64,000 nucleotides of DNA, taken from positions 31,529,310-31,593,309 of the forward strand of contig NC_068352.1 in NCBI RefSeq assembly GCF_014633365.1. Direction: 5' to 3'. The position numbers and the translations under genes were made by a program. Source of the DNA: Diospyros lotus (Eukaryota; Streptophyta; Magnoliopsida; Ericales; Ebenaceae). The notes beneath the pieces were generated by a model. The model had not been told where the DNA came from. It did no database searches and worked only from the letters and a program-made list of their open reading frames with translations. Below, one piece after another: positions 3,175 through 40,604 of the stretch. Each line of letters starts with the position of its first letter. The first letter of the stretch is position 1.

Positions 3175-4832
<1,658 letters not shown>

Positions 4833-4887
4833 CTAATGTAGTGTTTTCTGATTCTGGGTGGGTGCCATGAGAGTGGGTTCGAGTGAG

Positions 4888-4894: not shown

Positions 4895-5146
4895 GGAGGA
4901 GATTAGCTTGACCTTGAAGCTGAAAAATTCGGCAGTCAAATTTTCTCTCTTTCTGGGTTTCTGCGGTCTTGATCTTCGATGGGATTGTCATTGCTTGCAT
5001 CATGTTTATAGGATTCAAATGTCTTTGCATTTGGAGCTCACGGCTGACATCTGTTTCCATTAATTTTTGTTATTAAAGATAACATTTTTAAAGGCAGGCT
5101 CACGTAAACCTTCACTTACACTCGATTTTATTTAATATTTTGAATT

Positions 5147-5262
5147 CCCTGAGAAGACAATTGATTGAAGTTAGTACTGTTGGATGCTATGCAAATTATG
5201 CATGCCCTGAGAAGACAATTGATTGAAGTTAATAATGTTGGATGCTATGCAAATTATTATTT
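5147..5262 (+). repeat. 58-bp tandem duplication in unit 1 spacer
   Basis: Two adjacent copies (5147-5204 and 5205-5262) both begin CCCTGAGAAGACAATTGATT. They differ at a few positions. Units 2 and 3 do not have the doubled form. Confidence 0.75.
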
Positions 5263-7085: not shown

Positions 7086-7642
7086 GTAACACCTAATTAA
7101 TAGTGATCAAAACGCCAAGCATAATGCAGGACAGGAGGTCTTACACAATCTATCCAAACTTTTAACTAAAGAAATTAATGTTCAGGGTGCAACTAATCCA
7201 GACTAGTGTTCTGGGCTCATTTCATTTATAAACCATTCGTTGGCAGTATATGATGCATATCTGAATCAATGAAATACAGAAGAATACTAGCTTCCCAGTA
7301 GATGAGAGGACAATTCCAACTATTTTTTTCATTTTCTGTTCCATTTTTTGGAAGTAAAAAGACTGAATTAATATAGATCCAAGAGCACCATTCCAACCAC
7401 ATTTTTATGGGAAAATTCAATGCATCCATAAAATAAGGATGGTATACCAACCTTCATAGTTGCAAATGAGAAAAAACTTTCAGCAATCTGCCTAACTCGG
7501 CCCTTTAATCTCAAGTTTGACCAGTGAGGCACCTATGTACCAATTGATGAAACATCAAATGAATATGAAGCCATGTCAATTGTCAAATGTTAGGACAAGA
7601 AAGAACTCACAACCAGAAAAACCAACCTTGGCATCAATGAAG

Positions 7643-8667
7643 TGTCGTATTCCAAGGTAGTATTTGTAATTTTGATTTTATTTTCTATTTTTAATTTTTA
7701 TTTCTATTATGGCTATTTGTCAATTAAAGGATCGGTGGACGAGTATCTTGTGAGGTTTGAAGAACTTAAGGTGTTGATTGATGTCGCTCACCCCACACTA
7801 GACAAAGTCTACTTTGTATCCAGTTTCATCAATGGGTTAAATGAGGAGTTACGATCGATAGTCAAGATGATGCAGCCCACTACCGTCAATCAAGTTGCAG
7901 CAAAGGCCAAACTGTAGGAGATGGCCCTAAATGTTATTTTTAAAAAGCACGGAACTATAACAGAAAGATATCCTCAAAGCAGTCAGTAGGTGAGAAAAAA
8001 TGCTAGGAATGCAACCTCAAATTGGACTCAAGGAAAATAGCATCCTAGTGTTGCCAAATCTCTTATTATGGAGTCCAAGAAAAGACTTAGACTATGCTTT
8101 AAATACGGGGACAAATTCAGTCTGGGCCACCAATATAGAAAGCAATTGTTGCATATAGAGGGTTTAAAGAAAAAAGATGAAGTAGGAGAGCCAATCGAAG
8201 TTGGATAAAGGAACGGCGATAATAACTTTCTTGTGGATAAGAAACATTTCAATGGGAGAAAATTTATCACATTCCAAGAGTAGTATTTGTAATTTTAGTT
8301 TTTTTTTTATTTTTAATTTCTATTTATGTTATGACTATTTGTCTTATTACTAGAGACTGTTAGGATATTTTTTCTTTTTGTCTATTCCCTTATCTTATAG
8401 CTAAGGCAGTTACAGTCTTTGTCATGTGACTAAAATGATTGCAACTATGAGCCTATATATTGAGACACATCCTGACGTTGGAATTCATTAATGATATTAA
8501 TGAATATTTTGTAATTCTCTTTAATTTTCTTCTCTTTGTGATATCTTCTCCCTTTCTCTTGAATACTTTCATCTTCTTGATGTTTCTCTCTGATATCTCT
8601 CTTTAAATTCTCTATTAATCTTCCAAAATTCCCTTTCACACCATAGCTAAACCGTAGGGGTGTGACA
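7643..8667 (+). mobile_element. Internally deleted gypsy element (unit 2) with 5-bp TSD
   Basis: The 5' LTR is reduced to about 80 bp (7643-7722) and is fused directly to a gag fragment (GSVDEYLVRFEELKVL and onwards, about 7725-7917). The 3' LTR is full at 8265-8667, though its first dinucleotide is TA rather than TG. Perfect target duplications TGAAG flank it at 7638-7642 and 8668-8672. The same insertion site is used in units 1 and 3. Confidence 0.88.
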
Positions 8668-9018
8668 TGAAGTTGGTTCAAATTTTCACAAGTAAATTGA
8701 ATTCGTTATGTATTCACAGGGTTTGCCATTGTGGATCAAAACAGGCACTTTATGATGCATCTGGTTCCTCTTGTAGTATGTATATAGATCTACTTTAAAC
8801 ACACATAAATTGGTGAAACAAATCACTAAAATTGACATCAACACAATACATTATAGCATATTGTTAATACTTCAGATGAAACACTGAAAAACACAGATAC
8901 AGACAACTACTCGAAGCCCTACTTTATTATGAGCCACTCCTTACATAAACAACCAAATAGGGAGTGAAATGGGCCAAGACATTCGTATCATTCACAACCA
9001 TATCTCTGCTAAAACCTT

Positions 9019-10709
<1,691 letters not shown>

Positions 10710-10764
10710 CTAATGTAGTGTTTTCTGATTCTGGGTGGGTGCCATGAGAGTGGGTTCGAGTGAG

Positions 10765-10771
10765 TATTTAT
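10765..10771 (-). promoter_or_regulatory. Probable TATA box of GST copy 2
   Basis: The minus strand reads CCATAAATACTC about 86 bp upstream of the ATG at 10,679. It is identical in sequence and position to the element of copy 1, so the two copies probably began with the same core promoter. Confidence 0.5.
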
Positions 10772-10989
10772 GGAGGAGATTAGCTTGACCTTGAAGCTGA
10801 AAAATTCGGCAGTCAAATTTTCTCTCTTTCTGGGTTTCTGCGGTCTTGATCTTCGATGGGATTGTCATTGCTTGCATCATGTTTACAGGATTCAAATGTC
10901 TTTGCATTTGGAGCTCACGGCTGACATCTTTTTCCATTAATTTTTGTTATTAAAGATGACATTTTTAAAGGCAGGCTCACGTAAACCTT

Positions 10990-12700
10990 CAGTTACACTC
11001 AATTCTATTTAATATTTACTAAATATAACATCAACCGTGTTAGGTGACAGACTTAGGTTCCATTTATTTAAGATTGTAAAATATTATAAGTAATATCTTA
11101 TTATAATTATGATATACCTTTTATCATTACATAATTTATCTCATGTAGTACTAATAGATTGTTACATAATTTATCTCACATAATACTAATAGATTGTTGA
11201 GGGTATGGTCGCCTATTTAAATTTTTTTATTTACGTATCTTTTACAAGAAGAGTTTATCGTATCATTTACATCTAAGTAAAATCTTATCAAAAATTTAAC
11301 CACAGTTTCATGCTTTCTAAAATAAATAAACTTGTGAACCATAAGATACTATTAAGTCATAGAATATGGAACAAGAAGAAGCTCACTGAAAAATTTGTAT
11401 ATGTACGTGTTCAAATTGATATTTGGGTAAATAAAAAATTAATTAAAAAATAATTTGAAATATGTGTATTATAATATATAATTTATATTATTATAAAAGT
11501 AAAAAAAATACAAAAAATATATTATATATTAAATTATGAGAGTGTACTATGCATATATTGTGAAGACGTCTTATTAAAGTTAATAAGTTTGGATACTATG
11601 CAAATTACTATTTTAATTTTTAATATATATATATATATATATAATTGAGGGAGGAAAACCTCCCACCAGTTCTCCCTTAATTAGCCACCTTTCTCCCTTA
11701 ATTGGCCACCTGTCTGCTCTTTCTTCTTCTTCCTTTTCCATCTTATTTTCTCTTCTCTCCTTCTTCTTCCTCTTATGTAAATAAGGGTTCTTTTTCTAAA
11801 AAAAAAAAAAGAATTCTCGAAAGAATTTATCAATAGAAAGAAGTCTTAGAAGAATTAATAAATAGAATTTTCAGAAGAATTATTCTACAAAATTCTTGTT
11901 TTTCTAATTTTAATAATGTTCAATTTTACTGTAAAGTTTTAAAATTTGTGCTAACTTTTCAGTCTGTAAATCGTTGTATCCCGAAAAACAAACGCTAATT
12001 AACTTTTAGCACCTTCAATAAGACAGCGAATCTATTTTGAGAGAACTGTGTGTTACACAAATCTTGATTTTATCATCTCTTTATATATTGTTGTGTTTTT
12101 ATTTTTTCCTTACATAATATTATATTATTTTAATATTTCTATTATGTTGATTTAAATACAGTATTACAATAATTATATTTTTGAGAAATAATTATAATAT
12201 TATAATTATAAATATATTTATTGTTCAATATAATTATTTTAATTATAGTTGGCTAACAATCTTTAATGGGATAATGAAGAGCAGAGAGTATAAGTACATT
12301 GAAGAAAAATTTTATTATATTTTTCTAACAATTTGAACACTCGAGACTGCTTTAGTAATACTACATAAACAATATTTATGTCATGACAATTATAAATGAG
12401 TATTTCTCAATAAATTATACTAAATATCTTTGAAAATTGACCAAAAAAAACAAAAACACCCTTTAATATATTAAAAAAAATGGCAAAGAGCACCATTAAC
12501 GTTATAGTAGAATGGTCTATTATTCGATGCAAATAACAATTATGCTGCCCTAAACTTAATTATTTTCGATTAACCTCAGTTGAACAACAAATCATTCTTC
12601 TAATATTATAAGTGATGTAACCCTTTTCCCTCAAAATTATTAAGGAATGATTGTTAATTTTTTATAATTTCAAAGACACGTCACCTCACCTCACCTTTTC
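10990..12700. other. AT-rich spacer of unit 2
   Basis: No gene is seen. The DNA is AT-rich, with a TA run near 11,623-11,643 followed by sequence shared with unit 1 at 5290-6250. The part at 11,020-11,580 is missing from unit 1 but partly present in unit 3 (15,980-16,340). Confidence 0.75.
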
Positions 12701-13124
12701 TTGAGTCGTTCAACAGGCCCGATGGGTCTGTCGAGCGGCTCACAAAGATGGGGCAAAAAGACAATTTTGCCCTTGCTCACTTTACAAATTTACAAAGCGG
12801 GTCACTGCCCCCCTCGTTTTGCACGTCTCCCCTGCCTGCCATGGCCACCGCTCGCCTCTCCGTCACGCCTCGCTGCAGTCGCCCGACCTCACCTCCGTCT
12901 CCTCATTGCCATCACCGCCTCGCCTTGTCGATAGTCGATGCAACGACTGTCGGCGAGGCGACGGAGGCGAGGCACAGCGAAAAGGCGAGCGACGGCCATG
13001 GCAAGTAGGGGAAACGCGCAAAGCGGGGGGGAATCCATGGGAGGGGGAGAGCAAGGTGTGGGAGCAAAATGGTCTTTTTGCCCCCTTTCTGTAAACCCGT
13101 CGATAAGCTCGTCGGGCTCTCTAG
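12701..13124. mobile_element. GC-rich inverted-repeat insertion (MITE-like)
   Basis: A GC-rich block of about 424 bp sits in AT-rich DNA and is absent from the matching place in units 1 and 3. Its ends form an imperfect inverted repeat: GCCCGATGGGTCTGTCGAGC near 12,717 and, reading inward on the other strand from the right end, GCCCGACGAGCTTATCGACG. A short TTTTC flanks both sides as a possible target duplication. The family is unknown. Open frames inside it overlap on both strands and look like composition artefacts. Confidence 0.55.
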
Positions 13125-13364
13125 CATTTTCCTATTTTCTCTCTCTTTTTTAATTCTTTTTAATTATAGACCATCCACCATGGTGTATCAACACAGAAGC
13201 CCCAAGAAAGAGAGAGAGACTTGATCAATTGAAAGAGAAAAAATAATAATACCCATCTCTCCACCAATGCCATGTCTCATATTCCTTTCTTTTCCTAAAT
13301 CTATATCCACCTTCAATCACAGTGGACTTGTAACAACTGTGGGCCCAACCCAATGACTCTGACC

Positions 13365-14257
13365 TATGTTGCACAGAAACGGAAACAGAAAATGCAGAAA
13401 CGGTATTTTTCAAAAAAGTTAGGAAACGAAAACATAGGGTAAATTGTAATTTTAAAAAATATAGGGGTGTATGTGAAATTAATATATAATTTATATACTA
13501 TAAATCATATTAAGTTATAATTTTGCAAACCCTAGATATATTATTACCCTAGACTATTACCCACAAGCTCTCAGAGACCCACGCCGCTTGTTGTCAATGG
13601 CCGACTGCCGCTACTTCCTCCGTCTGCCACCGTCGTCGACCCGTCGCCTCTCTTGCCGTCGACGCGTCTGTTGCCCTCGCCCTTGCCCTCATCGTCTATC
13701 TCGCCTTTCTCATAGTCGATCTTTGCCATCGTTGCTGCCTCTCTTGGTCGCCATCGACGAGTCTCTTACCCTCACCCTCGCCTTCATCTCGCCTCTCTAC
13801 CAGTCGAAGCGTCTCTACCACCGTCGTTCGCCTCTCCCGCCATCGACGAGTCTCTTGCCCTCACCATCGCGTTCAATCTCGCATCTCTCATAGTCGAAGC
13901 GTTTCTACCGTCGTCACTCGCCTCTCACCCTCGTCGTCGCCCACCGCAGTACACCATCTCTCACCTTGACCATCGTTGCATACTCCATATCTCGCCTCGC
14001 TGCCAACCACCGTCGCCTCACCTCTCGATGATTGTTGTCTTCCTCACAGCAGGTGAGCGACCGTGGTCGCTGGAAACACGTTTCAAGTGTGAAACACATT
14101 TCCCATATTTTTTGTAAATTGCGAAACCGCCCCCAGAACGTTTCGTAATTTACAGAAACGTTCCGAAGGCCGTTTCGGGTCTTCTTCGAGGTTTCCAAAA
14201 TGGAAAACGATTCGAAAATACCGAAACGATACCTCCGAGCTGTTTCCGTGCTTCATA
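13365..14257. mobile_element. Non-autonomous Mutator-like element with 10-bp TSD
   Basis: An 893-bp insertion flanked by perfect direct repeats GACTCTGACC at 13,355-13,364 and 14,258-14,267. Units 1 and 3 have an uninterrupted sequence there. The termini are imperfect inverted repeats (TATGTTGCACAGAAAC and TATGAAGCACGGAAAC). A 9-10-bp target duplication and variable inverted ends fit the Mutator superfamily. The centre is GC-rich with no transposase. Confidence 0.75.
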
Positions 14258-15370
14258 GACTCTGACCGCTGCAATTGATGAATCGAACAAGACTTTGCAA
14301 TCAATTCTCATTCCCCCCTCTCTCTTTCCTTTTCTCCTTTGCTTGCTTCCAATTTGTGGCAAATCCTGAATCAAACCCCTGTCAAACTGCACTAGGACCG
14401 ATTTGGAGAGAAATAGAGCAAAATTTGTGTTGGATTGGCGAAGCTTGTCACTAGAGATGATATAGATGGAAGGATGGGGATGTGAGAGAAAACGATGCCA
14501 AATGATGTGAGACTCCTACTGTTGCTGTTGAAGAAGACGAATTGCTCGACCTAAAGAAGTGATGATCAAACAAATTGTGGGATGGAAAGAGAGAGACTGA
14601 GGCTAAGAGACAGAGATGTGAGAGATTACGTAAAATGGTCTTATTCAAGCAACAAATACCCTATGAGAGTAATCACTAATCATTTTCATTTTTAATATAT
14701 ATTATCAGGACTCTTTTTGTTTTAATACCAAACCTCAAGGGCACTCAATATAACTTACCCAATTTTCTTTATGTTAATGATGTTTTACAATAATAAAATT
14801 ATTGTAACACCTAATTAATAGTGATCAAAACGCCAAGCATAATGTAGGACAGGAGGTCTTACACAATCTATCCAAACTTTTAACTAAAAAAATTAATGTT
14901 CAGGGTGCAACTAATCCAGATAGGTGTTCTGGGCTCATTTCATTCATAAACCATTCGTTGGCAGTATGGTGCTGCATATCTGAATCAACGAAATACAGAA
15001 GAATACTAGCTTCCCAGTAGATGAGAGGACAATTCCAACTCCTTTTTCATTTTCTGTTCCATTTTTTTGAAGTAAAAAAGACTGAATTAATATAGATCCA
15101 AGAGCACCATTCCAACCACATTTTTATGGGAAAAACTCAATGCATCCATAAAATAATTAAATAAGGATGGTATACCAACCTCCATAGTTGCAAATGAGAA
15201 AAAACTTTCAGCAATCTGCCTAACTCGGCCCTTTAATCTCAAGTTTGACCAGTGAGGCACCTATGTACCAATTGATGAAACATCAAATGAATATGAAGCC
15301 ATGTCAATTGTCAAACATTAGGAGAAGAAAGAACACAAAACCAGAAAAACCAACCTTGGCATCAATGAAG

Positions 15371-15764
15371 TGTCATATTCCAAGGTAGTATTTGTAATTT
15401 TGATATTATTTTCTATTTTTAATTTTTATTTCTGTTATGCTTATTTGTGAGCTAAAAGATGTTAGGATATTTTTTCTTTTTTCTTTTCCCTTTTATCCTG
15501 TAATTAAGGTGGTTATAGTCTTTGTCCTATAACTAAAGTGGTTGCAGTTGTAAACCTATATATTGAGCCAGAATCTCTTGAAATTCATGAATGATATTAA
15601 TGAATATTTTATAATTATCTCTAATCTTTTTTTTCTCCCTTTGATCTCTTCTCCCCTTTCTTTAGAATACTCTCATTTTCTTATTATTTATATCTCCTCC
15701 TAAATTCTCTATTAATCTTTCAAAATTCATTTTCACACCATAGCTCAACCCTATGGGTGTGACA
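15371..15764 (+). mobile_element. Solo LTR of the array gypsy element (unit 3)
   Basis: One LTR only (TGTCATATTCC to GTGTGACA), flanked by TGAAG on the left and TAAAG on the right. This is the same site as the TGAAG-flanked copy in unit 2. It fits LTR-LTR recombination that removed the interior. Confidence 0.85.
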
Positions 15765-15965
15765 TAAAGTTGGTTCAAATTTTCAAAAGGATTCAAATGT
15801 TTATAGGATTCAAATTCCCTTTGACATGTTGTCATTGCATGCATCATGTTATAGGATTCAAATGTCTTTGCATTTGGAGCTCACGGCTGACGTCTGTTTC
15901 CGTTAACTTTTGTTATTAAAGATAACATTTTTAAAGGCAGGCTCCCATAAACCTTCTGTTACACT
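15765..15965 (-). pseudogene. Remnant of GST 5' flank, coding region deleted
   Basis: Immediately after the solo LTR the sequence keeps the start of the GST 3' flank (GTTGGTTCAAATTTTC). It then jumps to the GST upstream flank (GGATTCAAATGTCTTTGCAT, GAGCTCACGGCTGAC), which matches 5000-5110 and 10,880-10,990. Both exons, the intron and the TATA region are gone. Short GGATTCAAAT repeats at the junction suggest a local deletion or misalignment. Confidence 0.7.
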
Positions 15966-17359
15966 CAATTTTATTTAATATTTACTAAATATAACATCAA
16001 CCATGTTCGGTGACAGACTTAAGTTCCATTTATTTAAGATTGTAAAATATTAGAAGTAATATCTTATTATAATTATGACAAACCTTTTATCATTACATAA
16101 TTTATCTCATGTAGTACTAATAGATTGTTACATAATTTATTTGTTAGAGAGTCTGTTCGCCTATTTAAATTCTCTTATTACTGTATCTCTCACAAGAAAA
16201 ATTTATCGTGTCATTTACACATTCTAATTAAAATCTTATTAAAAATTAAAAATTTAATAACAATTTCATATTTTTTAAAATAAATAAACTTGCAAACCGT
16301 ATGATTAAAATACTATTAAGTCAGAATATAGAACAAGAAGCTGACAGAAAAATTTGAACACTCAAGACCAATTTAGTAATACTACAAGAACAAAATTTGT
16401 CATGACAATTATAAATGAATATTTCTCAATAAATTACACCAAATACCTTTAATAATTGATCAAAAAAACAAAGGCACCCTTTAATGTATTAAAAAAAAAA
16501 AAGAAAAAGAGCACCATTCTTCTAATATTATAAACTATGTATCACTTTTCCCCATAACTATTAAAGAATGACTGTTAATTTTTTATAATTTCAAAAATGC
16601 CTTTCACCTCGTCTTTCCTCTCTTCTTTTTAATTTTTTTTAATTATAGACCATCCACCATGGTGTATCGACACCGAAGCCCCAAGACAGAGAGAGAGAGA
16701 GACTTGGATCAATTGAAAAAGAGAAAATAGTAATACCCACCTCTCGACCAATACCATGTCTCATATTCTCCTTTTTTTCCTAAATCTATATCCCTCTTCA
16801 ATCATAGTGGGCTTGTAACAACTGTGGGCCCAACCCAATGACAGACCGCTGCAATTGATGAACCGAATAGGTCTTCACTTGCAATCAACTCTCATTTCCC
16901 TCTCTCTCTCTCTCTTTTCTTTTCTCCTCTGCTCGCTTCCAATTTGTGGCAAACCCTCAATCAAACCCCTATCAAACTGCACTAGGACCAATTGGCAGAA
17001 GCTTGTCACTAGAGATGATAGAGATGGAAGGATGGGAATGTGAGAGAACACGATGCCAAAGGATCTAAGACTCACTGTCGCTGTTGAAGAAGATGAATTG
17101 CTCGACCTAAAAAAGTGATGATCGAACAAATTGTATTGTGGGATGGAAAGAGAGAGTCAGAGACTAAGAGAAAGAGATACGAGAGTTTACATGATCCACT
17201 TCATGCAACAAATACCATATGAGAGTAATCGTTAATCATTTTCATTTTTTATATATATTATCAAGACTCTTTTTGTTTTAATACCAAACCTCAAGGGCAC
17301 TCAATATAACTTACCCAATATTCTTTATGTTAATGATGTTTTACAATAATAAAATTATT

Positions 17360-27900: not shown

Positions 27901-30900
27901 TAAATGTGCTGTGAATATACAAGAATTCTAAGAATTTCCACACATCATATACCTAATACAGTTGAGCCCAATCCTTAGAACCAGTTTCTCAACAATCTTA
28001 TATAACATGTAATAATTCTTCCATCCAAAGTAACAGTTATCAATGATCTTGACTTTCCCATCGCTCTTAGAAAAGGGGTTAGAACTTGTACTCAATACCA
28101 CATATGCAATTTTGTTTCATATGATTCACTTAACCCATCCTATAAGGATTTTGCTTCTGCTTTGTCTTCTTTTCTTATTCCTCAAAATTGGAAGGAGACA
28201 TTTGTTGATCCTAAGTGGAAGGAAGCCACGTTAGAGGAGGAGATGACTGCTCTAACTAAGAACAATAATCAGGAGCTTCCAACTCTTCCTGTTGGAAAGA
28301 AAACAGTAGGTTGCAAGTGATATTACAGTTAAGCACAAGGCAGATAGTACAATTGAAGGATTTAATGCAAGGTTGCTTGTTAAAGGAACTTATGGAGTTG
28401 ATTATCAAGAGAATTTTGCTCATGTAGCTGTCACAACCCCAAGGATATAGTAGTCATAGTACATTACATGTATTTCAGTTGGTTGTACCTTGATGCATTG
28501 TAGTTGTTGTACCTTTCAGTTGTTATTGTAACTGAAAGACAAACAAGCCTATAAATAGGCTAAAACCTAGAGGATTAGGTATTGTTGAATGATAATAGAA
28601 TTTCAGACTTCTCTCTCATCAATTCCCTTTCGATTCCTCTCTGATTTCCCTATTCTTCCCTCTCAATTCTGTCTGTTATCTCCTTCTTTCTGCTCTAATT
28701 CTCCCTGATCTCTCTCATTTCTTCTGATTTCTCCTTCTTTTCTGTTTTATCTTCCCTGGTATCTTCCAATTCCCATTCTAAACCCTAGGTTAAACCTAGG
28801 TACATGAAAATTTGGTATTAGAGCCAATCGATTCTCAGCTGTCAGCAAAGCAACTATCAGCTCTACATGACAATTTGGTATTAGAGCTGATTGATTCTCG
28901 GCTGTGAGCAAAGCAATTCTCAGCTAACATTCAGGAGCATCTTAGCAACGATTCAGTGAAGTTAATTTCCGACGGTACTCAGCTGTTGATTTCCGAAGCT
29001 TGTCGGCTGTTAATCTCCAGTGATTCTTGGCTGTGATTTCCGGCACTTCTCGGCTGTTCATTTCCGACACGAAGCAGAGCCAAGAGAATTCAGACGATCT
29101 AGGTGAATTCTATTAGCTGATCCAGCAAAGCAGATCCAGGTGTTCCGGCTGTTGATCCAGACCAGCAGTCCTCAGCTGCTGCATTGTGTGATTCAGGAAG
29201 GCTATCTCAGAATTGGAAGTCAGGCGATTGCTGACCAGAAGCGGTCCTAGCGAAGCAGATCCAATCAATTCTCAGAAAGCTCTAATTGAGCCACTCGATT
29301 CAAAGGAGGCTGCTATTACTGGCTGTAGATCTAGGCAATTTCTAGAAGTGATTTCAGTGACAGAATTCTGGCGAATTTGAAGGCAGAAAAGAGTCAATCA
29401 AGTTTAGGAGGTATCACAGTTGCGCAGCGGAAGCAGTTGCAGAAGCAAGCAATGGACACCAGACTCGAGGAAACATGCGCTAACCTCAATCAAAAGCTGG
29501 ACGAAATCATGATTATGGTGGCCAAACGGTTTCAGATTAGTCTTCCAGCTCAATTACTTTCTAAGGAGTATTTGGATTCAATTATTCAAAGGAAGAGACC
29601 AGTTCTGGTGACAGTTGGAGATCCATACATTACTTGTCCATTGAATCAGCTTTCAGAGATAAAAGGAAATCTCTAGATCCAATGACAGTCCAATCATATC
29701 AGCCGGAATCATTCGTCAGACTTCTGGATTTTAGGAATCTGAGGAACAATCTGAAATGAACCAGTCAGTTGTAACTCAAGACTCCGGCGAAGAAGAGAGA
29801 TTGGACAAGGAGATCTGTGAGGATCACATTTTATATTTGCAGGAAGCTGATGAAGTAGCATTGGAACAAAACATTGATTCAATTGATATGCCGGCAATAA
29901 ATCAGATCAGAGATGAGAATTGCAATGAAAAGAGCTTTCATGCATCTGCTGAGAGGTATGCCTGTTACATCGACTCTAGGTTGGATCAAGTTTTTGACGC
30001 TCCACATGCAGTCAAAGAAGTTCTGATCGAGCAATTTGGATTGGAACAGTCTTATATTGGCTCTAAGGAAATTGCTCATAAGGCTGATGAGGTCCTAAGG
30101 CTAGGACTTTTGGACCTTTGGGCCCCAAGGTTTAAATCTAGATATGGAGGTCATGTTTCAGTCATTGAGGAACCGGAGGGACAATCTCTCTCTTCCTCTA
30201 CAATCAGGATGCTGAGAAAGGAATGGCAGTTGCAGGAAAAGTCACTACAACAACATTGGAGGAGAAATTTGATACAGATGAACTTGTGGTGTACCCTAGC
30301 AAGCACGAAGTAACAGATGCTTTAAAAGCACTGATGAAGTTTGTAAATGTTGAGCCCAACTGGACCTGGGAGGAGGCAATGCGAATAATCATCCATGACA
30401 AGAGGGCTGGGGCTTTAAGAATTTTTGGTGAGTGTAGACAGACATTCAATGAGTACTTGGACCAAAGAAAGAAGCTGGAGGCTGAGGAAAGGTGTAATGA
30501 CTGTAGGAAGAACAAGGGAATCACTGGAACTTACACTTACAGATCAATTGGAGAAGAGAACTTTGTCATGGATATTTTGGAGGACTACATTTTATATTGG
30601 CAGGAAAAGCAATGTTGAGCCCAACTGGACCTGGAAGGAGGCAATGCAAATAATCATCCATGACAAGAAGGCTGGGGCTTTAAGAATTTTTGGTGAGTGT
30701 AGACAGACATTCAATGAGTACTTGGACCAAAGAAAGAAGCTGGAGGCTGAGGAAAGGTGTAATGACTGCAGGAAGAACAAGGGAATCACCGGAACTTACA
30801 CTTACAGATCAACTGGAGAAGAGAACTTTGTCATGGATATTTTGGAAGACTACATTTTATATTGGCAGGAAAAGCAAAAGAGAAAGAACATAAGAGCGAA

Positions 30901-33900
30901 GAGGAATAGACCTAGAAGGAGAAAGAAAGAACAAAGGATAAATCAAATAATGAAGCAGGGATTGGATGAAGAACAGTGGCCAGTGCCAGTCACTGCAAGT
31001 CACGACCCCAAGGATATAGTAGTCGTAGTTTATTACATTTATTTGAGTTGGTTGTACCTTGTTGCATTGTAGCTGCTCTACTTTTCAGTTATTGTAACTG
31101 AAAGGCAGACAAGCCTATAAATAGGCTAAAACCTAGAGGATTAGGTATTGTTGAATGATAGTAGAATTTCAGTTCTCTCTCATCAATTCCCTCTCAATTT
31201 CCTCTCTGATTTCCCTATTCTTCCCTCTCAATTCTGTCTGTTTTCTCTCTTTCTGCTCTAATTCTCCCTGATCTCTCTCATTTCTTCTGATTTCTCCCTT
31301 CTTTTCTGTTTTATCTTCCCTGGTATCTTCCAATTCCCATTCTAAACCCTAGGTTAAACCTAGGTACATGACAGTAGCCAAATGAGTTTTATACAAGGCT
31401 TTCTGTCATGTGCAGCTAACTTAGGTTGATATAACTGAATGTGAAAAATGCTTTCTTTATGGTGCCTTACAGGAGGAAGCTTACAAGAGGAAGCTTGTAT
31501 CATAGTTGTTAAAGGCGCGCCTAGGCGCAAGGCACCTCGCCTAGGCCGAGGCGAGGCGAGGCGATTTCAATGAAGCCCTCGCCTTGCACGGTGAGGCGCC
31601 GGGGCGTGAGGCGCGCCTCATGAAACTTAGGTTTTAATTAAAACCTAGGCAACCCAATTCGCTCCTCACTCCATCTTCCTCCCGACTCCAACCACGCCCG
31701 CATCCTCTCTTCCTCTCCTTTCTAGCCTCTCCTCTCCAACTCGCCCGATCTTCCTCTTCCTCTCCTCTCCAGCCGCGCCCGCCTCCTCTCTTCCTCTCCT
31801 CTCCAGCTCAGCCCAATCTTCCTCTCCTCTCCAGCCGCGCCCACCTCCTCTCTTCCTCTCCTCTCCAGCCACGCCCGCCTCCTCTCTTCCTCTCTGTCAT
31901 GAACCTAAGGTTCATAACGAGCTGAAATTGGCAATCGAAATGATCCAATTGAATTAAGGTCAAGAACAGAATGTATAGAGGGAAAATTGAAGAAGAATGG
32001 GGGAGAAATTAGAGAGAATTGAGGGAGAGCAGAAGAGAGAATTGAGAGGGAGATTTGAGAGAATTCGATTTTCTTTCATTCATTCAAGCATAATCTTCTC
32101 CTCTTACAATGGGCCTTTTTATAGGCATAGTAGATAGATAACTAATTTCTAACAGCACCCATGTGCTCTAACAACTTGTAAAAATATCCTAACAAACCAT
32201 TGCAACCTTATTACAATGATGCCCTTCTATTATTCCTTGGGTCATGACAATTCCCCCCTCCTTGAGAGAGTTCTTGTCCCCAAGAACTTGCAGCAACTAT
32301 TCATTACTTTTCATCCAATACCGGCTTTCTCGATCCGTTTCATTCTTCTTGCTTGCTTGCTTGCATCTTTTAGGCCTCTTCTTCTTCGTTCTTAGGTTTC
32401 CAAGATCCATCCCAAGCATACTTTGGCCTAGAGCTTCAATTGAAGAAATCTGATCGAGTTCAAGTTTGATGCCCCCACCTTCTGCAATAGCTGGCCGACC
32501 ACAATCAGTCTCCCTTTCCAATACAAGGTTGGATAGAGAATCTACAACCATAGCTGCCTTTACTATGTTTCCATTCAACCCATGGCCAATTTCTGTTGCA
32601 AAAATATCAACATCATCCTGAAAATATAGCGATGAAGAGTTGTAGACTTGCCTTGGGTGCTCAGACCAATGCTGTTTGTGAGCATTGGAATTAGGGGTTG
32701 CTATGATTTCAATCCCTGATTTATCAGTTTCCAGCTCTTGTAAAGTGTGATCTTTACAGATCTCCTCATCCAATCTACCTTCATGTTCTGAATCCTTAGT
32801 TACCATTGATAAATTGGCTGTGATTCCAGCAACAACTTCCTTAATATTGATTGATTTTTCAGTTGGTTCCTCTTGATTCCATGCAAGTAATCCAGCAGCT
32901 TCTTTTTCCCCATCTTCGTCGAGATATTTCTCTACATGCACTTCTCCTTCAAAAGGATTCGTGGGCTCCTTTTGATCTGTTATCCTATCAACCCGATTAA
33001 TATAATTTTCCTTGAGATTATGCTTTTCACAACCAAAATTACTCTCAATATTGCATCCATCTTTCTGGTCACTGTTGCCTCCGTCACAATGTTTCTTTTT
33101 CTGCCCAAAATCTAGAGTAGGCAGTGAATCGGTCATTCGTACTCTTGTCTCCTCCTTCGACTACTCCATTCCAAGGAACTCCTCCTTGTTAAAACTTTCG
33201 TGGTAATCATCAAAGTATTCTACCGAAAAGTTGTAATAATACTTCTTAATAAGTATCATTGCAAATTTTTGCAGCTTCTCATAAAACATTCGACCGAATT
33301 CCTTGCACTCTTCATGTATTACACTTCTTGTTCCTTTGTCCCTGTTGCTGCCAGCTGAAAAGGCAGCCTTCTTTGGCTGCCATTGAGGCTCCATTTCCGT
33401 TGAAAATGAAACATTCTTCTACTGCAATTGAGGCTGCTCTCTTGCTTGAAAATTAACCACTGAAAATGCAGCATCATTCGGCTGCAAATGAGACTCCAAT
33501 GGTCTCGTATATGCACTGCTCCCCATAGCCAACTTTTCACCAACAACATACTTCGACGGCCACGGAATGGAAGTTCTGTACATGCTTCTGTTTTGCCTGT
33601 TATAGCAGTTCCTAAACTCACTTCAATTGCAACTCAATAGTTGAAGAACACCCGCTCTACTTCGCCTCCCTTCTTCAAACAAATTATCCCAAAATTCAAA
33701 GCCAAAATTAACCTTTGTTTACCTTACTAGCAGCCTAGGATTTGATTGGAATTACCGCAAAAGAGCGCTGGAATTCTCAACCAAGAATCACCCCTCCAAA
33801 TTCGCCTTCCACAATCCACTCCCAGTTGCTCCAAATCTCAACGTTTCTGCTATGCAAATACTTCCAGAACTTGATTGAATCGATTTGGCCTCCAGATTCA

Positions 33901-36900
33901 CCTCACGAAAATCAGTTGCTTGTTTTCAATGTCGAACCAGTGACCAGAGTCCTAGCTAGAGGTCACTCCTCCTACGTCTCCTTCAAATCCTAGCCGACCT
34001 CACCTTCTCATGCATCGGAATCAGTTACTACTTCAAATCCAACATGCGATTGCCTTAATTCAACAATTACTTCCAAACTTGCATCCTTACTCACCAGAAT
34101 GTCTACTCGGCCGCCAAAGACCCCCCGGCTTGCTCACTTCAAATCGGATCGAACATTATTGAATTTTGAACTCCAGCCGAGGAAGACCGCTCTGAGATGC
34201 CTTCCGATTGGGTCCGTGAAGTGATCAGAAATCACCTTCTCCCTCAATCCTTCCTCGTTTGACAAGGGCTATTCACCGAATCCGTTTGAATTGGCTGTGA
34301 CAGCCTTCCCCACCCCTGTCGTCAACTTCGGTGGAGCTCTTGCAACCTGTCTTCCGCTTCAGTTGCACGCGCCTAGGTCGTCAGCTTCACCCTCCGATGG
34401 ACTCACACCTCTTCGGGACGTCCGCTACAGCCGCGGACGCTCGATGGTCCACTTAACTCTCCGACGGACTGCCGCTTGTCACAAAAGACGTCCGTTCGCG
34501 TCACCCCACTGTCCGCTTCTCACGAATGACTATTGTCCGCTTCACCTCTGACGGACTTACGCTCACCTTGGACGGTCGCAACCCACAACCAATAGCAAAT
34601 GCTCCTCAGTTCGTGTCCCACCTAATCACCGACTCAGCGACCCAGACCCAGTCGCTCCAATTCGCGAATCCTCCTGGGTTGCTCATCTTCAAGTCTGGTC
34701 TAGATTACTGGATTCTTGGCCGCAATCCAATCCTCCTACTTCTCCTTCGCGTCTTCACTAGAAGTTGCTGCTTCTTGAATTGCCTTCAAGCAACGAACCA
34801 GGATTGCCGAAGTTTCGCCAAACCGACTTTGATCACCATCGCAGTTCGCGCTCACCTCACCCAAATCGCCTTCAAAGCCTTCTCAATCTGGGCTCGATTA
34901 AATCAAGCAGAAGGAGTCGATAGCCCCAGATTTGCTCTTGCCAGGTATATCCAAAAATCTGATAACTGTGATGGGTTCCAGAAGTCACCCAGATTTGCTT
35001 CTCACCGTCTGGGTTGGAATTGCAAGTTTCAATCAACTGGAATCAAATCCACAGCCAATGATTGACTGCTCTGATACCATTTGTCATGAATATAGGGTTC
35101 ATAACGGGCTAAAATTGGCAATCGGAAGGATTCGATTGAATTAAGGTCAAGAACAGAATGTATAGAAAGAAAATTGAAGAAAAATGGAGGAGAAATTAGA
35201 GAGAATTGAGGGAGAGCAGAAGAGAGAATTGAGAGGGAGATTTGAGAGAATTGTAGAGAGAGAAAATCAGATTTTCTTTCATTCATTCAAGCATAATCTT
35301 CTCCTCTTACAATGGGCCTTTTTATAGGTATAGTAGCTAGATAACTAATTGCTAACAGCATCCTAACAGCACCCATGTGCTCTAACAACTTGAAAAATAT
35401 CCTAACAAACCATTGCAACCTTATTACAAATTGCCCTTCTATTATTCCTTGGGTCATGACAGTCTCCTCTCCAACCACACCCTCTTCCTCTCTTCTCCTC
35501 TGCTCACGCTCTTCTCCTCTCTTCTTCTCCTCTCTTCCTCTCCTCTCTTCTCCTTTGCTCTTCAAGATATCAAGCAGCCTACTGCCCACCGAAACCAGCT
35601 ACCATTCTCGGTCTCAACCTGCTCTCGTGAGTTCTTTACTTGTTTTATTTGATTATTTCTTGTCTACTTGTTTAATTTCTCTTGCTGGTTACTTCTCTCT
35701 CTTTATACAATTGTTGTTTTCTTGTTGATTGGAGAATTTTGTGGAAGTTGGAATTGTGTTGTAGCAACCCAGTCAATCTCATCAAATATTTCCAAAACTA
35801 ACCTAGTATGAAATTACTTTGAAACTGATCCTAATGATAGAAATACCACCACATGTAAATTTTGTCGTAAAGTAACAAAAGGTGACACATTTCGGGCGAA
35901 ACAACATCTTGTGGGCATATTTCGAAAGGTGGCGTCGGTATCAATACGTGATACCATTGACCCACATTGATGAAAGCAATGAATGGTTGATTGGAAAGCT
36001 TGATGAGGAGAATGATAAAGATGATGAAATTGTTTTTCCAGATAACGTTGGGGATGGGTTGACATGGAGTAATGTCGTTGTAGCTGCAGGAGTTGGAGAG
36101 CCTAGTTATCGATTTAGAATTAAACAAACTCGATCACAATCGGGTTCAACTTCGGCTTCGACTTCAAAGCGGCAAGTAACTCAGGAGATTGAAGAGGAGG
36201 AGGAAAGTGAGACAAAGACTGAAGATGATAAAGACTTGGAAGAGAGAGAAGAATTAGGACAGGAAGAAGAAGATGAAGGGGATGATGAAAATATTGACCT
36301 TGATGTGGATGATCTCCTTGATGATGATTGATTAAAACTTCTTTATTGATTGTGGACTTGTAGTGTTTATGTATTTGTTTAAAATTTTGCATGATGATTG
36401 GTACTTGTTTGAGTTTCAGACTTTGGGTTGAACTTTAATGATGTTTCTAGTTTAGAATTTGCATAATGAATTAATCAACTTTGATGTTGTTAGTTTAGAA
36501 TTTGAAGATGATGAATCATGAATGATATACATATGTTATTATTGATAATTTGATAGTTGTTTATGATTTTACAAGATTTTGAGTTTTTTTTTCTAAAAGG
36601 TGCGCCTCGCTTTGCAAAGGCGCGCCTCAAGCTCCAAGCCGCCTTGATGCGCCTCTCGCCTTTCAAAACTATGGCTTGTATGGAGGTGTGTAACATTTGA
36701 TTGTAACAGAAGGCAAAATTTGCAAACTCAAGAAGACACTATATGGCTTTAAGCAGTTTTCTAAGGCATGGTTTAGAATAGTGTTATTAAAGGCGCACCT
36801 TGATACCAAACGCAAGCCTGGTGCCTAGAAACAAACCAGGCGGGCGAGATCTGCCCAAGCCCTCAGGCGCAGCCTTGGGCTCATAGATGTTAAAGGTGCG

Positions 36901-39900
36901 CCTAGGCGCACCTCATGAAATTAGCTGTCAAGCAGTCCACTGCCCACCGAAACCAGTTGCCATTCTTGGTTCCAACCTCCCCTCTTCTCGATTCCAACAT
37001 GTATACATTACAACATATTTACATTTCTTTAGTTTAAGTAAATGTCCACATTTTCTTTAATTTATATTTTACCTTCTATTTACTTTAATACATAAATGTA
37101 AATAAGAAAGTACCCCCCATTTGGATTCAATAAAAATTATCTAAAAAATCAAAATTCATAATAATAAGAAAATAGAATTTTGGTTTTAGTACAAACTCGG
37201 TATTTAGCGATTTTACCACCCCCAAATACATACCTACTATTTCTTGAAAAATTCATTAAAAATCATTTTAACAATAATGAATATTAGCTATCAAAATACC
37301 GAGAGATAATTTTTCAAAATGAAAACATTTTTTTATGTCTCCTTATAATGCCCTAATCCTCTAGACTTAGAAAAATAACATTTTTCAAAATGAAAACATT
37401 TTCTTGATTGTGGACTTATAGTATTATGTGTTTGTTTAGAACTTTGCATGATGATTGGTACTTGTTGTGAATCTTACAGGAATCAAAAATTTAAAATGTC
37501 ATCCAACACTATTGATCCTAACCCTGATAGTAGTTTTGCTAGTAAAAGAAAAGATCCAACATGGAAATATCATAGTTAGCATATGTTGAATTTTATATTT
37601 TTTTATAGCATGCTTGTTAAAATATTATTAGAAGTTATGACCTATTTTATACCTTTTTTCTTCAACTAGGACATATATTTTTTTTTTTTATTAACTTGCG
37701 CCTAGTTCCACCAGGCTGGCGCCTCGCCTTGCGCCTTGCACCTCAGGCTCCAAGACCCTTGTGCACCTTAGTGCGCCTTGGGCCTTTAATAACACTGATT
37801 TAGAAAATTCAATAAATCTATTTTCAGCTTTAGATTTTAGCAAAGTAGTGCATCACACCATTCTGTTAAATGAGTTAGGATTATATGACTCTTCTCATTT
37901 AATATGCTATAGTGGTGACAAGCAATAAACCAGGAGAAACGGCACAATTGAAATGTTCCATTGCCAAAAAGTTCGAAATCAAGGATCTAGAAAAAGTAGG
38001 ATATTTTCTGGAAATTGAGGTTGCTCAATCTAAAAAGGGCATCTTTGTATCTCTCAAAAAAAAAAAAAAAAATACATTCTTGATATACTCAAGCAAACTG
38101 GTATGCTAGGTTGCAAACCTACAGAGACTCCTATTGTAACAAACCATTGTTTTAATAATGCTTATGGTAACGAGGTTAACAAGGCTATGAATGACTGGTT
38201 GGGAAGTTAGTTTATCTATCTCATATCTGTCCAAAAATAGCCCACACTAATAAAAAAACTCAGCCACTTTATGCATGAACCGTAACAACTCGTCCAGAGG
38301 CTGTTTACCACCTGAAGGTTGAACCATCTACAGATGCTGATTAGGCTAGTTCTCCAGGCACAAACTGGGCCCCTACTTTACTTGGAACAAAATCTGTAAC
38401 AGCCATTTTTAAAGGATCTTCCACGTTATAAACTATGGGGACATGGTGACAAACCACTAACCTGTCCAAACAATTCTACTACTACTCTTCCACACAATCT
38501 GATGTCAACTTATAACCCCCTGATAATAATGCTCAAAGCATCATATGAATCTTAAGGACTCTTGTAATAAGATCTCAAATTTTTTACTCCATTACCTGAA
38601 TAGTTACAAGCTAATAGGTTTCATCCATATATAGGACTATTGCTGAATAAAATCCTAAAAAAGTTGTTCAAGATGATGCCACTAAATATTCAATACATTG
38701 GTGACAAGTTTCCAAAATAATGATCTTGCACATTGTTCAAAAATATCAGCCAACACCACAGAGAATGAAAGAAAAAATAGAAGACGGAAAAAAAAAAAAG
38801 TTTAAGCAAGCTAGGAACCAAGAGCCCACCTAAAGTGGCCCTTTCTTTTGCATGGACACCCTTGCGTAGTTCCATTCTAATTATTGAGACCATTAGAAAA
38901 CTGAGTCATGCCGCGACTATGTGGTGCTATCCATGTAAGAAGGGGGAACATCATGTTTGGAGGTCTATCTCTTTCTATATCATGTACCATATTCGGAGGG
39001 AGAATAACTGAGCATTCCAGGGTGAAGGGAGGCAAATTTCTTCTCCTACAAGAGCCAGCCTCATTTCTCTATTTTGCTAGTCAGGGAGGATGTCTACTTC
39101 TTTCTAGAGTTACTTGTTCTGTTTATGTATGATGTTTCTCTGTATGTAATCTCTAAAAGGTGTTCTTTTATGTGAGTTGGCAACCCTTAATGTCAGTCTT
39201 TTACATAATACTTTTAATCATTAACAAAAAATCAGAGGCTTAAGCAAAACTAGAAGCAACTATAGCAATCTTTCTAAAGAAAAAGTAACTGTTTAAATCC
39301 TTTTCATTTTAAATTAAACTCCACATAATCTTGGATATCACAATCTGAACTATGAATATGATACATTAGGCAGCACCTATTATCTCTTCTTTTTGAAGCT
39401 TCAGCAATACATATTTTTCTGTCTAAATAACAATCAATCTTGTAAGAAAACCTGATTAAAGTCTATCCATCACAAAAAGAGCTTTACGCACCTGCACCTT
39501 GCTTGCTTTGCACATGTAACTTGCAAGCACCAAAAATTCATCAAACGCAATTGCCTTATCAATTTTCCCACCAAATATGCCCTCAAACCTCTATGCATTC
39601 AGGACACAGGAAGACCCCATTACATATAGTCATGAGTTCTAATACAATTATGAAGAATTATAGCGACAGAAAAACCCAGAACCCTACCTTGAGTTGGATC
39701 ACAAGGACATTAGGCGCTTGAAGTAAAAACATTTGCTTCCTTGCCACCACCAATTTTTTACAACTACACAAGCATAAGTTGATGGGTCAATATACATGCA
39801 TATGGGTAACTGAGAATTAAAGACACAGAATCACTTACTTCTCACACTTGTACTTGTTATTCCCATCCAAATTCTCCGCTTGGAAAAACTTCTGCAGACA

Positions 39901-40604
39901 GTCTCTGAGAGAACCACTATGCAACACATCAAGACTCAAGTCCATAATCTCGTCGACCTTATTGGACTCGGCACCACAGACCAGACACTTCACCTGACTC
40001 TGAATAGCACCCCCGAAAATCTCCTTCACCACCGTAGAAGAAAACCCCTCGTTTCCTCCGCTGCAGCTGGTGTCGCCGCCCTTGCGCCATTTTAGCTTCT
40101 TGAGACCGAGGCAGGCGTTGTGGCAGGAGTCAATCACGTAGCGGAGAAATTCGTGGGCGTCCTCCTGGCGACCGAGGCGAAAGTGTTCGGCGAAAGTCTT
40201 CAGAGAACTGTTCATCTTCCGAGGCGAGTCCTGCGCCAGATCAACGCTCAGAGACCTCGCGATCCGCTTCTCCAAAATACAGAACGGACAGTCCCGCTTC
40301 TTGTCGGCCTCCGCCAAGTCACCTGCACAAGCACCGAATTGATCACCGTCAAAATAATAAGTAAAACCTCGAAATCTTTGATAAAAATTGGGAATGGAGA
40401 AAGAATGAATTGATTACAGGAGGAGGAGTGTCGGAAGGAGAGGCAGAAATTGGCGAGAGGAGGAGTGAAGGTGAGGCACTGGAGGACGCTATTGAGGTAG
40501 CAGGAATTGCCAAGGTTTCGGAGGCCGAGGGGAGGGCTTCCTTGCTTGCGCTGCTTCTGGTTGTGGCGGCGGAGAGTCGGCTGCCAAGTCATTTGCAAGG
40601 CCAT
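19544..40604 (-). CDS. UBP25: UBP25-like ubiquitin carboxyl-terminal hydrolase
   Basis: A cysteine protease of the USP/C19 family that removes ubiquitin from proteins. Eight coding exons (minus strand): 40,418-40,604; 39,839-40,322; 39,688-39,763; 39,498-39,590; 21,854-21,940; 20,966-21,726; 20,004-20,135; 19,544-19,649. All junctions are GT-AG and the phases agree, giving 641 codons plus stop, close to Arabidopsis UBP25. The Cys box [18 protein letters not shown] contains the catalytic Cys35. The His box [16 protein letters not shown] contains His303, and WYCCND contains Asp320. A CLVC and CENC pair forms the zinc-finger ribbon. The C-terminal half is low-complexity, Ser/Asn/Lys-rich. The start is the MALQMTWQP methionine, as in the family. 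Intron 4 (21,941-39,497) is about 17.6 kb of nested transposons, but no coding exon is damaged. The neighbour upstream is the translocator gene, as in Arabidopsis. Confidence 0.93.
21955..23460. other. UBP25 intron 4, 3' portion (not transposon-like by eye)
   Basis: Intronic DNA with no coding exon. It contains a T run and an A run near 23,150-23,225 but no LTR, inverted repeat or protein similarity that I can see. Confidence 0.6.
24044..26576 (+). mobile_element. Long solo LTR (2,533 bp) inserted in copia A
   Basis: It begins TGTAATGACCCG and ends GGGTCCCACA, with perfect TSDs TTCAC at 24,039-24,043 and 26,577-26,581. It splits the copia RT between WFGRFT and KAM..FGYK, so the host frame reads across when it is ignored. 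No gag or pol is present. A very long LTR starting TGTAATGACCC resembles the Del/Tekay chromovirus group (family knowledge). Open frames inside it are not gene-like. Confidence 0.85.
24205..24680. repeat. Cluster of CATTCGAATG palindromes
   Basis: The exact 10-bp palindrome CATTCGAATG occurs six times in under 450 bp near the 5' end of the solo LTR (near 24,250, 24,319, 24,341, 24,391, 24,414 and 24,670). Several one-mismatch variants also occur. This is U3-side sequence and may be regulatory. Confidence 0.7.
29377..29676 (+). pseudogene. Gag-like N-terminal fragment in element C
   Basis: A 99-codon open frame includes [20 protein letters not shown], which resembles the coiled N-terminus of plant Ty3/gypsy gag. 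It ends before any zinc knuckle. It may be the truncated gag of the ancestor of this element. Confidence 0.45.
29756..30222 (+). CDS. Unrecognised acidic open frame of element C
   Basis: An open frame starts at 29,756 and runs on to 30,313 (185 codons). I do not recognise it. It is acidic and includes [20 protein letters not shown] similar string ([15 protein letters not shown]) occurs in the minus-strand frame of element D, so both elements share a family-specific, non-gag-pol protein. It overlaps the start of the PRP40-like frame from 30,223. Confidence 0.4.
30223..30930 (+). pseudogene. Captured PRP40-type FF-domain fragments, tandemly duplicated
   Basis: 30,223-30,618 reads as pre-mRNA-processing factor PRP40. 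The lead-in to the first FF domain and the FF core are present ([36 protein letters not shown]). They join directly to sequence like the last FF domain ([25 protein letters not shown]). A second copy of about 265 bp (from about 30,611) repeats the FF part in another frame and continues into a basic tail ([10 protein letters not shown]). The first copy ends in a stop created at the duplication joint. PRP40 is a nuclear U1-snRNP-associated protein; here only spliced-together pieces remain inside a retroelement. A functional product is doubtful. Confidence 0.78.
31690..31894. repeat. CT-rich minisatellite in hAT1
   Basis: Imperfect units of roughly 50 bp built from CCTCTCCTCTCCAGCC and CGCCCGCCTCCTCTCTTCC are repeated about four times. 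Related CT-rich sequence continues at 35,462-35,560 on the far side of element D, so D inserted within this minisatellite. Confidence 0.7.
31895..35461 (-). mobile_element. LTR element D nested in hAT1 (minus orientation)
   Basis: The LTRs are 31,895-32,249 and 35,082-35,461, both reading TGTCATGA to GTCATGACA. Next to the right LTR is CTGCTCTGATACCA, the complement of an initiator-methionine-tRNA primer site. Next to the left LTR is a pyrimidine run, the complement of a polypurine tract. Both place the 5' end on the right. The flanks CTCTC and GTCTC are a near-match TSD. No reverse transcriptase or integrase was seen. The LTR ends and internal protein resemble element C. Confidence 0.85.
32297..33394 (-). 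pseudogene. Element D internal open frame, broken by one stop
   Basis: Two same-frame open stretches (33,394 to 33,161 and 33,136 to 32,297) are separated by a single in-frame TAG at 33,161-33,163. Together they would be about 365 codons. The protein is acidic, with [15 protein letters not shown] resembling the element C frame, and ends in a basic tract ([14 protein letters not shown]) followed by YWMKSNE. Element C has a similar basic tail. The function is unknown. It is not gag, RT, RNase H or integrase. Confidence 0.5.
35800..36331 (+). pseudogene. hAT transposase remnant: BED finger joined to C-terminal tail
   Basis: 35,821-35,935 encodes a BED-type zinc finger ([25 protein letters not shown] and H spacing present). 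After a frame change and apparent internal deletion it meets the usual C-terminal end ([31 protein letters not shown]) and a very acidic tail ending DVDDLLDDD. The catalytic core and the hAT dimerisation domain are missing, so no active transposase is made. Confidence 0.75.
36779..37797 (+). mobile_element. Second hAT element hAT2 (1,019 bp), non-autonomous
   Basis: The ends are TAGTGTTATTAAAGG and CCTTTAATAACACTG, flanked by GTTTAGAA (36,771-36,778) and ATTTAGAA (37,798-37,805), an 8-bp duplication with one mismatch. It has AGGCGC-rich subterminal regions and shares sequence with hAT1 (CCACTGCCCACCGAAACC). It keeps only the first codons of a transposase (ATG at 37,496, then [10 protein letters not shown] and a stop). 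It interrupts the RT of copia B. Confidence 0.85.
38430..39497. other. UBP25 intron 4, 5' portion
   Basis: Intronic DNA between copia B and exon 4. I see no exon, LTR or inverted repeat. An A run occurs near 38,790. Confidence 0.6.
39498..40604 (-). CDS. UBP25: UBP25-like gene, 5' exon block (exons 1-4)
   Basis: Exon 1 (40,418-40,604) holds the start and the catalytic Cys box. Exon 2 (39,839-40,322) has [18 protein letters not shown], the [10 protein letters not shown] motif typical of USPs, and [14 protein letters not shown]. Exon 3 (39,688-39,763) has [11 protein letters not shown] and [11 protein letters not shown]. Exon 4 (39,498-39,590) has [16 protein letters not shown]. All four lie within 1.1 kb, in contrast to the 17.6-kb intron that follows. 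Confidence 0.9.

Follow-up and report, generated by a model that had tools for sequence, protein, structure and literature searches.

The 64,000-nt window of Diospyros lotus DNA analysed here (contig NC_068352.1 of assembly GCF_014633365.1, positions 31,529,310 to 31,593,309, forward strand) holds at 28429-31373 a long terminal repeat (LTR) retrotransposon of 2,945 bp, element C. In this element the start of gag is followed by pieces of two host genes, SMC5 and then PRP40A, an order that follows from the SMC5 matches lying upstream of the PRP40A matches (Table 1). An earlier sequence-only reading had taken the interior to be PRP40 and not gag-pol. The PRP40 assignment holds for the PRP40A part; the SMC5 piece, with which the cargo begins at 29765, had been missed, and the 5´ part is a gag remnant.

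Element C and its two cargoes

Element C is delimited by LTRs with TG...CA ends, one end base being altered in each, and by a 5-bp target duplication. The LTR pair and GTAGC enclose the cargo, and the PRP40 pieces had rightly been read as captured by an LTR element. Over 374 sites the LTRs differ by a Kimura two-parameter distance (K2P) of 0.053. The primer-binding site TGGTATTAGAGCC stands at 28813, after the 5´ LTR, and is initiator-Met-like as a tRNA complement. The LTR end and primer site form a 63-bp tandem (28801-28925, 86% identity) that is more diverged than the LTRs (p 0.03) and perhaps older than the insertion. Directly 5´ of the 3´ LTR of element C there is no polypurine tract; a tract rich in purines or in G occupies this place in the relatives read, and that of element C was probably lost by deletion after insertion. 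When joined, the flanks of element C form one continuous degenerate sequence. By its motifs we take this surrounding sequence to be copia polyprotein, for which Pfam gave no confirmation.

No pol frame was found in element C, so that it is not a full Ty3/gypsy element; the protease, reverse transcriptase and RNase H of a cargo-less relative (see below) indicate that it is gypsy-derived and non-autonomous. At 2,945 bp and with a gag remnant it does not fit a terminal-repeat retrotransposon in miniature (TRIM), nor is it a TR-GAG element, as no Pfam gag was found in its scanned frames and only the N-terminal part precedes SMC5. The LTR borders and the absence of introns speak against a Pack-MULE or a Helitron (Helitron ends were not searched for), and a scan of 24-38 kb of the window for inverted repeats, with a minimum length of 40 bp, gave none.

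The similarity of the 149-aa PRP40A cargo to PRP40 and FF domains, proposed from the letters, is significant in Pfam (FF domain, PF01846; 27.5 bits against a cutoff of 22, E 3.3e-6), in PDB, where the top matches are PRPF40A FF domains (E 4e-8), and among proteins, where the top match is PRP40A of D. lotus (P0001; E 6e-35). By tblastn, P0001 residues 447-542 match 30205-30492 with 67/96 identities and its tail matches twice, residues 857-880 at 30538-30609 and 857-884 at 30803-30886. These scores stand far above those of 300 dinucleotide shuffles of the element interior, with a best P0001 score of 25 bits against 137 observed and, for the tail alone, 20.4 against 38.9. The cargo shares with P0001 two residues that are rare among 85 PRP40A proteins, D484 (P0001 alone) and V474 (P0001 and one other). 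In a search of short proteins (82-260 aa) with this cargo, the 15 candidates all fell short of the E 0.01 threshold.

PRP40 blocks that are far apart in the protein had been described as joined without the middle, and the joined block as repeated in tandem in another frame. The middle is indeed missing from element C, but through later internal deletion, since other copies retain these middle PRP40A regions. The 265-bp direct repeat (30346-30610/30611-30875) is real; its units differ at seven sites, all transitions, and the frame is shifted, frame 1 holding FF1 with the first tail block and frame 2 the repeated copy. The repeat was seen, however, at no other locus among 50 compared. Set against the age of the insertion, 7/265 substitutions in the repeat compare with 19/374 in the LTRs (p 0.16, or p 0.04 if the five LTR indels are counted). 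The SMC5 and PRP40A parts of element C are also in different frames.

The frame upstream of PRP40A (29735-30310) matches plant SMC5 in a protein search (E 1e-20), with the main tblastn match at about 29861-30190 (E ~1e-26). In DNA, each exon separately, identity to the host gene is 77.6-86.8%: exon 3 corresponds to 29765-29790 plus 29861-29951, exon 4 to about 29952-30052 and exon 5 to about 30053-30197, whereas exon 6 is represented by its first bases only, a call that rests on nine bases. Among 14 proteins compared, 13 match SMC5, one matches PRP40A and none matches both; Pfam gave no match for the frame. A protein of element C's own was considered for this frame and rejected, as protein and DNA matches show SMC5, and an SMC5 start near 29861 was rejected because DNA comparison puts the start at 29765. 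In the insert within exon 3, 29791-29845 is 78% identical to 30552-30606, and part of 29791-29860 overlaps the PRP40A-tail match in another copy, L026. At least the start of the insert is also present in L022, and a 90-bp match of 73% that covers most of it lies on the minus strand at 32720-32809, within the neighbouring element B.

Table 1. Features of element C and its borders (positions in the window)
Feature	Position	Strand	Remark
Target-site duplication, left, GTAGC	28424..28428	.	same letters as 31374-31378
5´ LTR, 381 bp	28429..28809	+	19 substitutions and 5 indel events against 3´ LTR
Primer-binding site TGGTATTAGAGCC	28813..28825	+	read from sequence; within 63-bp tandem repeat
N-terminal gag remnant, frame broken	29452..29764	+	ends ...CAG, matching the position of putative gag splice donor 1
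SMC5 fragment	29765..30207	+	exon-by-exon DNA matches to host SMC5
Insert in SMC5 exon 3, origin uncertain	29791..29860	+	resembles PRP40A C-terminal block
SMC5-PRP40A junction, common CAGGATG	30205..30211	+	PRP40A exon start at 30208
PRP40A fragment, four exons over FF1	30208..30500	+	residues 448 to ~545
265-bp tandem repeat, unit 1	30346..30610	+	self-comparison
PRP40A C-terminal block, residues 857-880	30538..30610	+	tblastn; joined after internal deletion
265-bp tandem repeat, unit 2, other frame	30611..30875	+	self-comparison
3´ LTR, 376 bp	30998..31373	+	pairs with 5´ LTR
Target-site duplication, right, GTAGC	31374..31378	.	matches left copy

Missing introns, related copies and capture edges

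Both donor genes are present in the D. lotus assembly. Host SMC5 exons 3-8 have ordinary splice signals, and no exons past exon 8 were found in the further genomic stretch examined. Two SMC5 introns are plainly missing where element C passes from exon to exon, and so is a third, to judge from the nine bases with which its SMC5 part ends. The comparison with host PRP40 introns that the sequence-only reading had proposed gave the same picture: the exons for residues 448-480, 481-503, 504-529 and 530 on are 84, 84, 87.5 and 92% identical to 30205-30500, and the three introns are missing. Among related copies, L041 and L042 have SMC5 exons 3 to 8 without introns, as does L043 except for an extra ~430 bases near the exon 3/4 join. 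Such absence of host introns indicates that the host pieces were captured via spliced RNA. The introns preceding the captured exons are long, ~4.4 kb for SMC5 intron 2, which greatly exceeds the other introns in the portion of that gene read, and ~20.1 kb for the PRP40A intron before residue 448.

Related copies are numerous in the genome. The search counts are lower bounds, and among the weak clusters some may reflect chance similarity or further exons of PRP40. With the 149-aa cargo as query at least 105 matches were obtained (150 of 247 candidates scored), in 94 clusters of which one is host PRP40A; with SMC5 at least 65 were found (65 of 357 candidates scored); of their 56 clusters, two belong to the host gene and at least 54 lie outside it. 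PRP40A-type loci number about 90, which bears out the suspicion of a recurrent cargo, and SMC5-type loci about 54; at least 25 loci have both within 3 kb. Overlapping or host loci were removed before loci, edges and selection were counted. Cargo was seen in 37 of 41 loci examined, with none in the stretch examined at L033, L036, L039 and L040, which came from the LTR search. Taking direct repeats of at least 100 bp as LTRs, in a stretch of limited length per locus, we found the cargo enclosed by a pair in 23 of the 37; the cargo thus lies inside such a pair in other copies too, and the refuting condition set by the sequence-only reading, a fragment outside the LTR pair elsewhere, did not overturn it. 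A pair failed to enclose the cargo in one locus, and in 13 no pair was seen.

The copies are of several types, with SMC5 only, PRP40A only, SMC5 followed by PRP40A and, in one (L050), PRP40A first. At one other locus the two gene parts are each reported within an open frame of 328 aa, equal in length. In L026, a PRP40A-only copy, the match extends as far as the compared host stretch does, to about residue 1003 of 1028, which suggests that the first PRP40A capture ran near the end of the gene. Two copies have the gag end and PRP40A exon start doubled 66 bp apart (L062 at ~1369/1435; L064 at ~1525/1591, reverse strand).

Capture at the DNA level, in the manner of Pack-MULEs or Helitrons, or rearrangement beside the genes, is a route taken by many plant gene fragments (passages in PMC2774510). 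It is contradicted here by the absent host introns, by the direct-repeat pairs around the cargo and by the 5-bp target duplication of element C, and we give it hardly any credence.

The 5´ edges of the cargo lie at exon boundaries. Gag is followed exactly by the start of SMC5 exon 3 in five loci (L034, L041, L042, L043 and element C; L022 by eye), and in nine, by a loose pattern and with L034 ambiguous, the PRP40A exon from residue 448 comes directly after gag that ends in about CAATTCAG. Seven more loci have a shorter element end, TTG and then the PRP40A exon start, edges that a GAT-to-GAT deletion could explain. In the sequences compared, no upstream host exon of SMC5 or PRP40A was found next to gag. 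Earlier PRP40A starts indicated by tblastn (residues 401-444) were not borne out in the DNA of L022, L023, L026, L050, L072 and L073. The SMC5-PRP40A junction of element C (scored there by eye) is common to 15 other loci; its TCAGGATG is common to SMC5 exon 5/6 and to PRP40A-only elements and would be the join of the two captures.

The gag 5´ sequence is common to SMC5-bearing, PRP40A-bearing and cargo-less copies. In a genome scan the element motif was found at 39 places and its reversed control at none, and of 20 short stretches read at the motif 16 run into SMC5 and/or PRP40A and four into gag. In three of the four cargo-less copies (L083, L086, L088) the letters are GTAATT where SMC5 begins in other copies (putative donor 1) and GTTAGA where PRP40A begins (putative donor 2). 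One cargo-less gag copy, L096, when read downstream, has RVP_2, RVT_1 and RT_RNaseH, i.e. protease, reverse transcriptase and RNase H. The two putative gag donors, CAGGTAATT and CAGGTTAGA, are nine bases apart and have 8/9 and 7/9 of the bases of the donor consensus, against which ten natural donors of SMC5 and PRP40A score 3-8/9. Fusion of gag to either gene keeps the gag frame into phase-0 exons. At the other end, relatives return to a common stretch before the LTR; PRP40A stops at varying points inside late exons, and later deletions blur the first junction.

Probable splicing from gag into host exons

The best explanation of these observations, and one we hold to be quite probable, is that gag was spliced to host exons, that the products were reverse transcribed and that two such captures later recombined. 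Gag-pol downstream of the gag N-terminus would in this way have been replaced by host exons in ancestors of element C. One element copy would have resided in sense in SMC5 intron 2 and another in the PRP40A intron before residue 448, each being transcribed from its LTR, and gag would have been spliced from either of its two neighbouring donors to the host exon that follows and on through those downstream. The chimeric RNA would have been packaged, would have regained the element 3´ end by template switching and would have been integrated by the enzymes of an autonomous relative. The SMC5 and PRP40A versions would later have recombined at the common TCAGGATG, with internal deletions afterwards and, in element C, the 265-bp duplication. 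The features of transduction through a spliced chimeric RNA are apparent, namely element sequence up to a putative donor, a host exon start and the loss of the later introns.

Alternatively, reverse transcriptase may have switched within the particle from element RNA to mature SMC5 and PRP40A mRNAs, the exon-start edges being coincidental. The absent introns would be accounted for, abnormal template switching is described in plants (passages in PMC13317346), and the SMC5-PRP40A junction with its common TCAGGATG itself looks like such a switch. However, both 5´ edges coincide with the start of a host exon and, in the element, with GT, and the preceding exons end in AAG and GAG, so that only AG is common with the gag end. 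With exons of ~100 nt and GT at 1/16, we estimate the chance of a coincidence of four edges at far below 1e-4, and we consider this alternative unlikely.

Several observations weigh against splicing from gag. The chimeric RNA is deduced from DNA, and because CAG flanks both sides of each junction, the appearance of splicing could also arise from unspliced RNA through a copying switch at CAG. Degeneration has affected the gag-type copies, none of which has CAG|GT intact at both sites, and the fourth cargo-less copy (L093) is without part of the motif. The label gag is itself taken from motifs and the position before protease; Pfam gave no match for the L096 gag frame. Twelve 'other' loci fit no junction class, several of them being loose pattern matches, and of the 23 enclosed loci a script search gave a target duplication for only 2. 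Only two captured genes, and probably two capture events, are known. Remnants in the relevant introns, a piece of B-type LTR in SMC5 intron 2 (sense, 71%) and a gag-like 167 bp in the PRP40A intron (sense, 69%), fit sense insertion weakly, since repeats of this kind abound; the PRP40A intron also has a further match to B-type LTR, in antisense.

Gene capture had been thought to be less often seen in LTR elements. Surveys contradict this, with gene fragments in 425 LTR elements of maize (passages in PMC2774510) and, from the results section of a survey, a rice figure of 1,343; under the conditions of the maize survey no element had more than one gene (PMC2774510, same passages). Maize Bs1 resembles element C as an LTR element with pieces of host genes, three in Bs1, in a hybrid frame (passages in PMC13317346), and as carrying exons only (passages in PMC4717578). 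It differs in genes and host, and the accounts of it in these passages give no splice-donor footprint with an empty gag counterpart. GmaRetroS15, with fragments from three genes, and the gene-carrying TRIMs are likewise LTR-bounded, mostly multi-copy and exon-only, with 5-bp duplications (passages in PMC4717578). These TRIMs measure 1,172-1,449 bp, and the same passages describe no gag remnant or exon-edge analysis, whereas the element C family has ~90 loci, two genes and recombined versions.

Closer in mechanism is retroviral oncogene transduction, in which a chimeric provirus-host transcript is formed, retroviral or cryptic donors splice into the gene and capture appears to need the chimeric RNA (passages in PMC515179). 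That system belongs to animal retroviruses, while element C is a plant Ty3/gypsy-type element with housekeeping genes and no sign of function. In Drosophila, a donor in a sense intronic LTR element, Springer, splices into the next host exon (passages in PMC13097621). The Springer hybrid was seen as RNA, with no reinserted copy described in those passages; in the element C family the reinserted product is what is seen, in DNA. Among the titles and abstracts listed by full-text literature searches, which mostly leave out subscription journals, none deals with capture of SMC5 or PRP40A, and no plant case of a splice-donor footprint with an empty counterpart was found at the level of titles, abstracts and passages. 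Exon-only multi-gene capture is already known from Bs1 and GmaRetroS15; the splice-site footprint with its empty counterpart looks new.

In our reading, the mechanism of capture by LTR elements has often been deduced from intron loss alone. Here, empty gag, single-gene and recombined states together with both donor genes are found in one assembly, which makes a specific mechanism testable. If true, it would link the intronic hybrid splicing observed in fly RNA with heritable shuffling of genes in plants, and the history of capture would account for the odd PRP40 block in element C. There is an even chance, in our estimate, that the two gag donors act as a standing exon trap, whereby intronic copies would yield in-frame gag-host mRNAs, some of which would become heritable mobile fusions that recombine. 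Such a trap would amount to retrovirus-style gene transduction in plants, and further trapped genes would be expected at the same donors.

Selection, age and surroundings

A further possibility is that the hybrid is a working element protein under selection, e.g., as a replacement for gag. In-frame gag-host fusions, the 328-aa open frame and a still recognisable FF domain would favour this. Selection was assessed on copy-copy pairs because the host branch is constrained and comparison with the host would be unfair; copies with fewer than 40 aligned codons were left out. The median ratio of nonsynonymous to synonymous divergence (dN/dS) was 0.63 for SMC5 (368 pairs) and 0.55 for PRP40A (335 pairs). 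These values are slightly under the medians of neutral simulations but inside their ranges, 0.68 (0.53-0.91) and 0.66 (0.51-0.90), respectively, the simulations using the observed transition bias and a star tree, which is a simplification. Stop-free copies were 15/30 for SMC5 (neutral mean 11.2, maximum 18) and 6/27 for PRP40A (mean 10.1, maximum 17). One 'stop' appears for element C in the PRP40A copy alignment, yet its own frame is open at that place; we take it as an alignment artefact. Near-invariant columns lost in the SMC5 part (7/41) are within the natural range, 1/44 to 8/50 in eleven sequences, whereas the PRP40A part has lost 14/52 against at most 5 in 85 natural proteins. A working protein is, on these figures, improbable. 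The cargo is most likely a passenger: the selection tests fit neutral decay, and a brief coding life is possible.

From the LTR K2P, and with plant substitution rates, we estimate that element C inserted ~2 to 4 million years ago. Synonymous divergence (dS) between copies and host genes is 0.12-0.39 for SMC5 (30 copies) and 0.16-0.52 for PRP40A (27 copies); set beside the LTR K2P of 0.053, these values make the captures look older than the insertion.

Element C is not the only repeat in its surroundings. Element B (31887-35461, minus strand) is a non-autonomous LTR element whose LTRs are 87% identical and whose primer site is of the TGGTATCAGAG type. Its LTR resembles that of element C over part of its length, at 69%, and a DNA comparison with the SMC5 and PRP40A exons gave no match in it. 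Just 5´ of element C, an 87% direct repeat (23574-23860/27649-27937) possibly represents the two LTRs of a copia-like element that ends there. Several overlapping duplications of 75-94% identity occupy 783-17359, a region that holds a GST N-terminal domain (10215-10706, minus strand) and pieces of gypsy gag (1969-2032, 7810-7924). Finally, a piece of ubiquitin carboxyl-terminal hydrolase (PF00443) lies at 39835-40413 on the minus strand.

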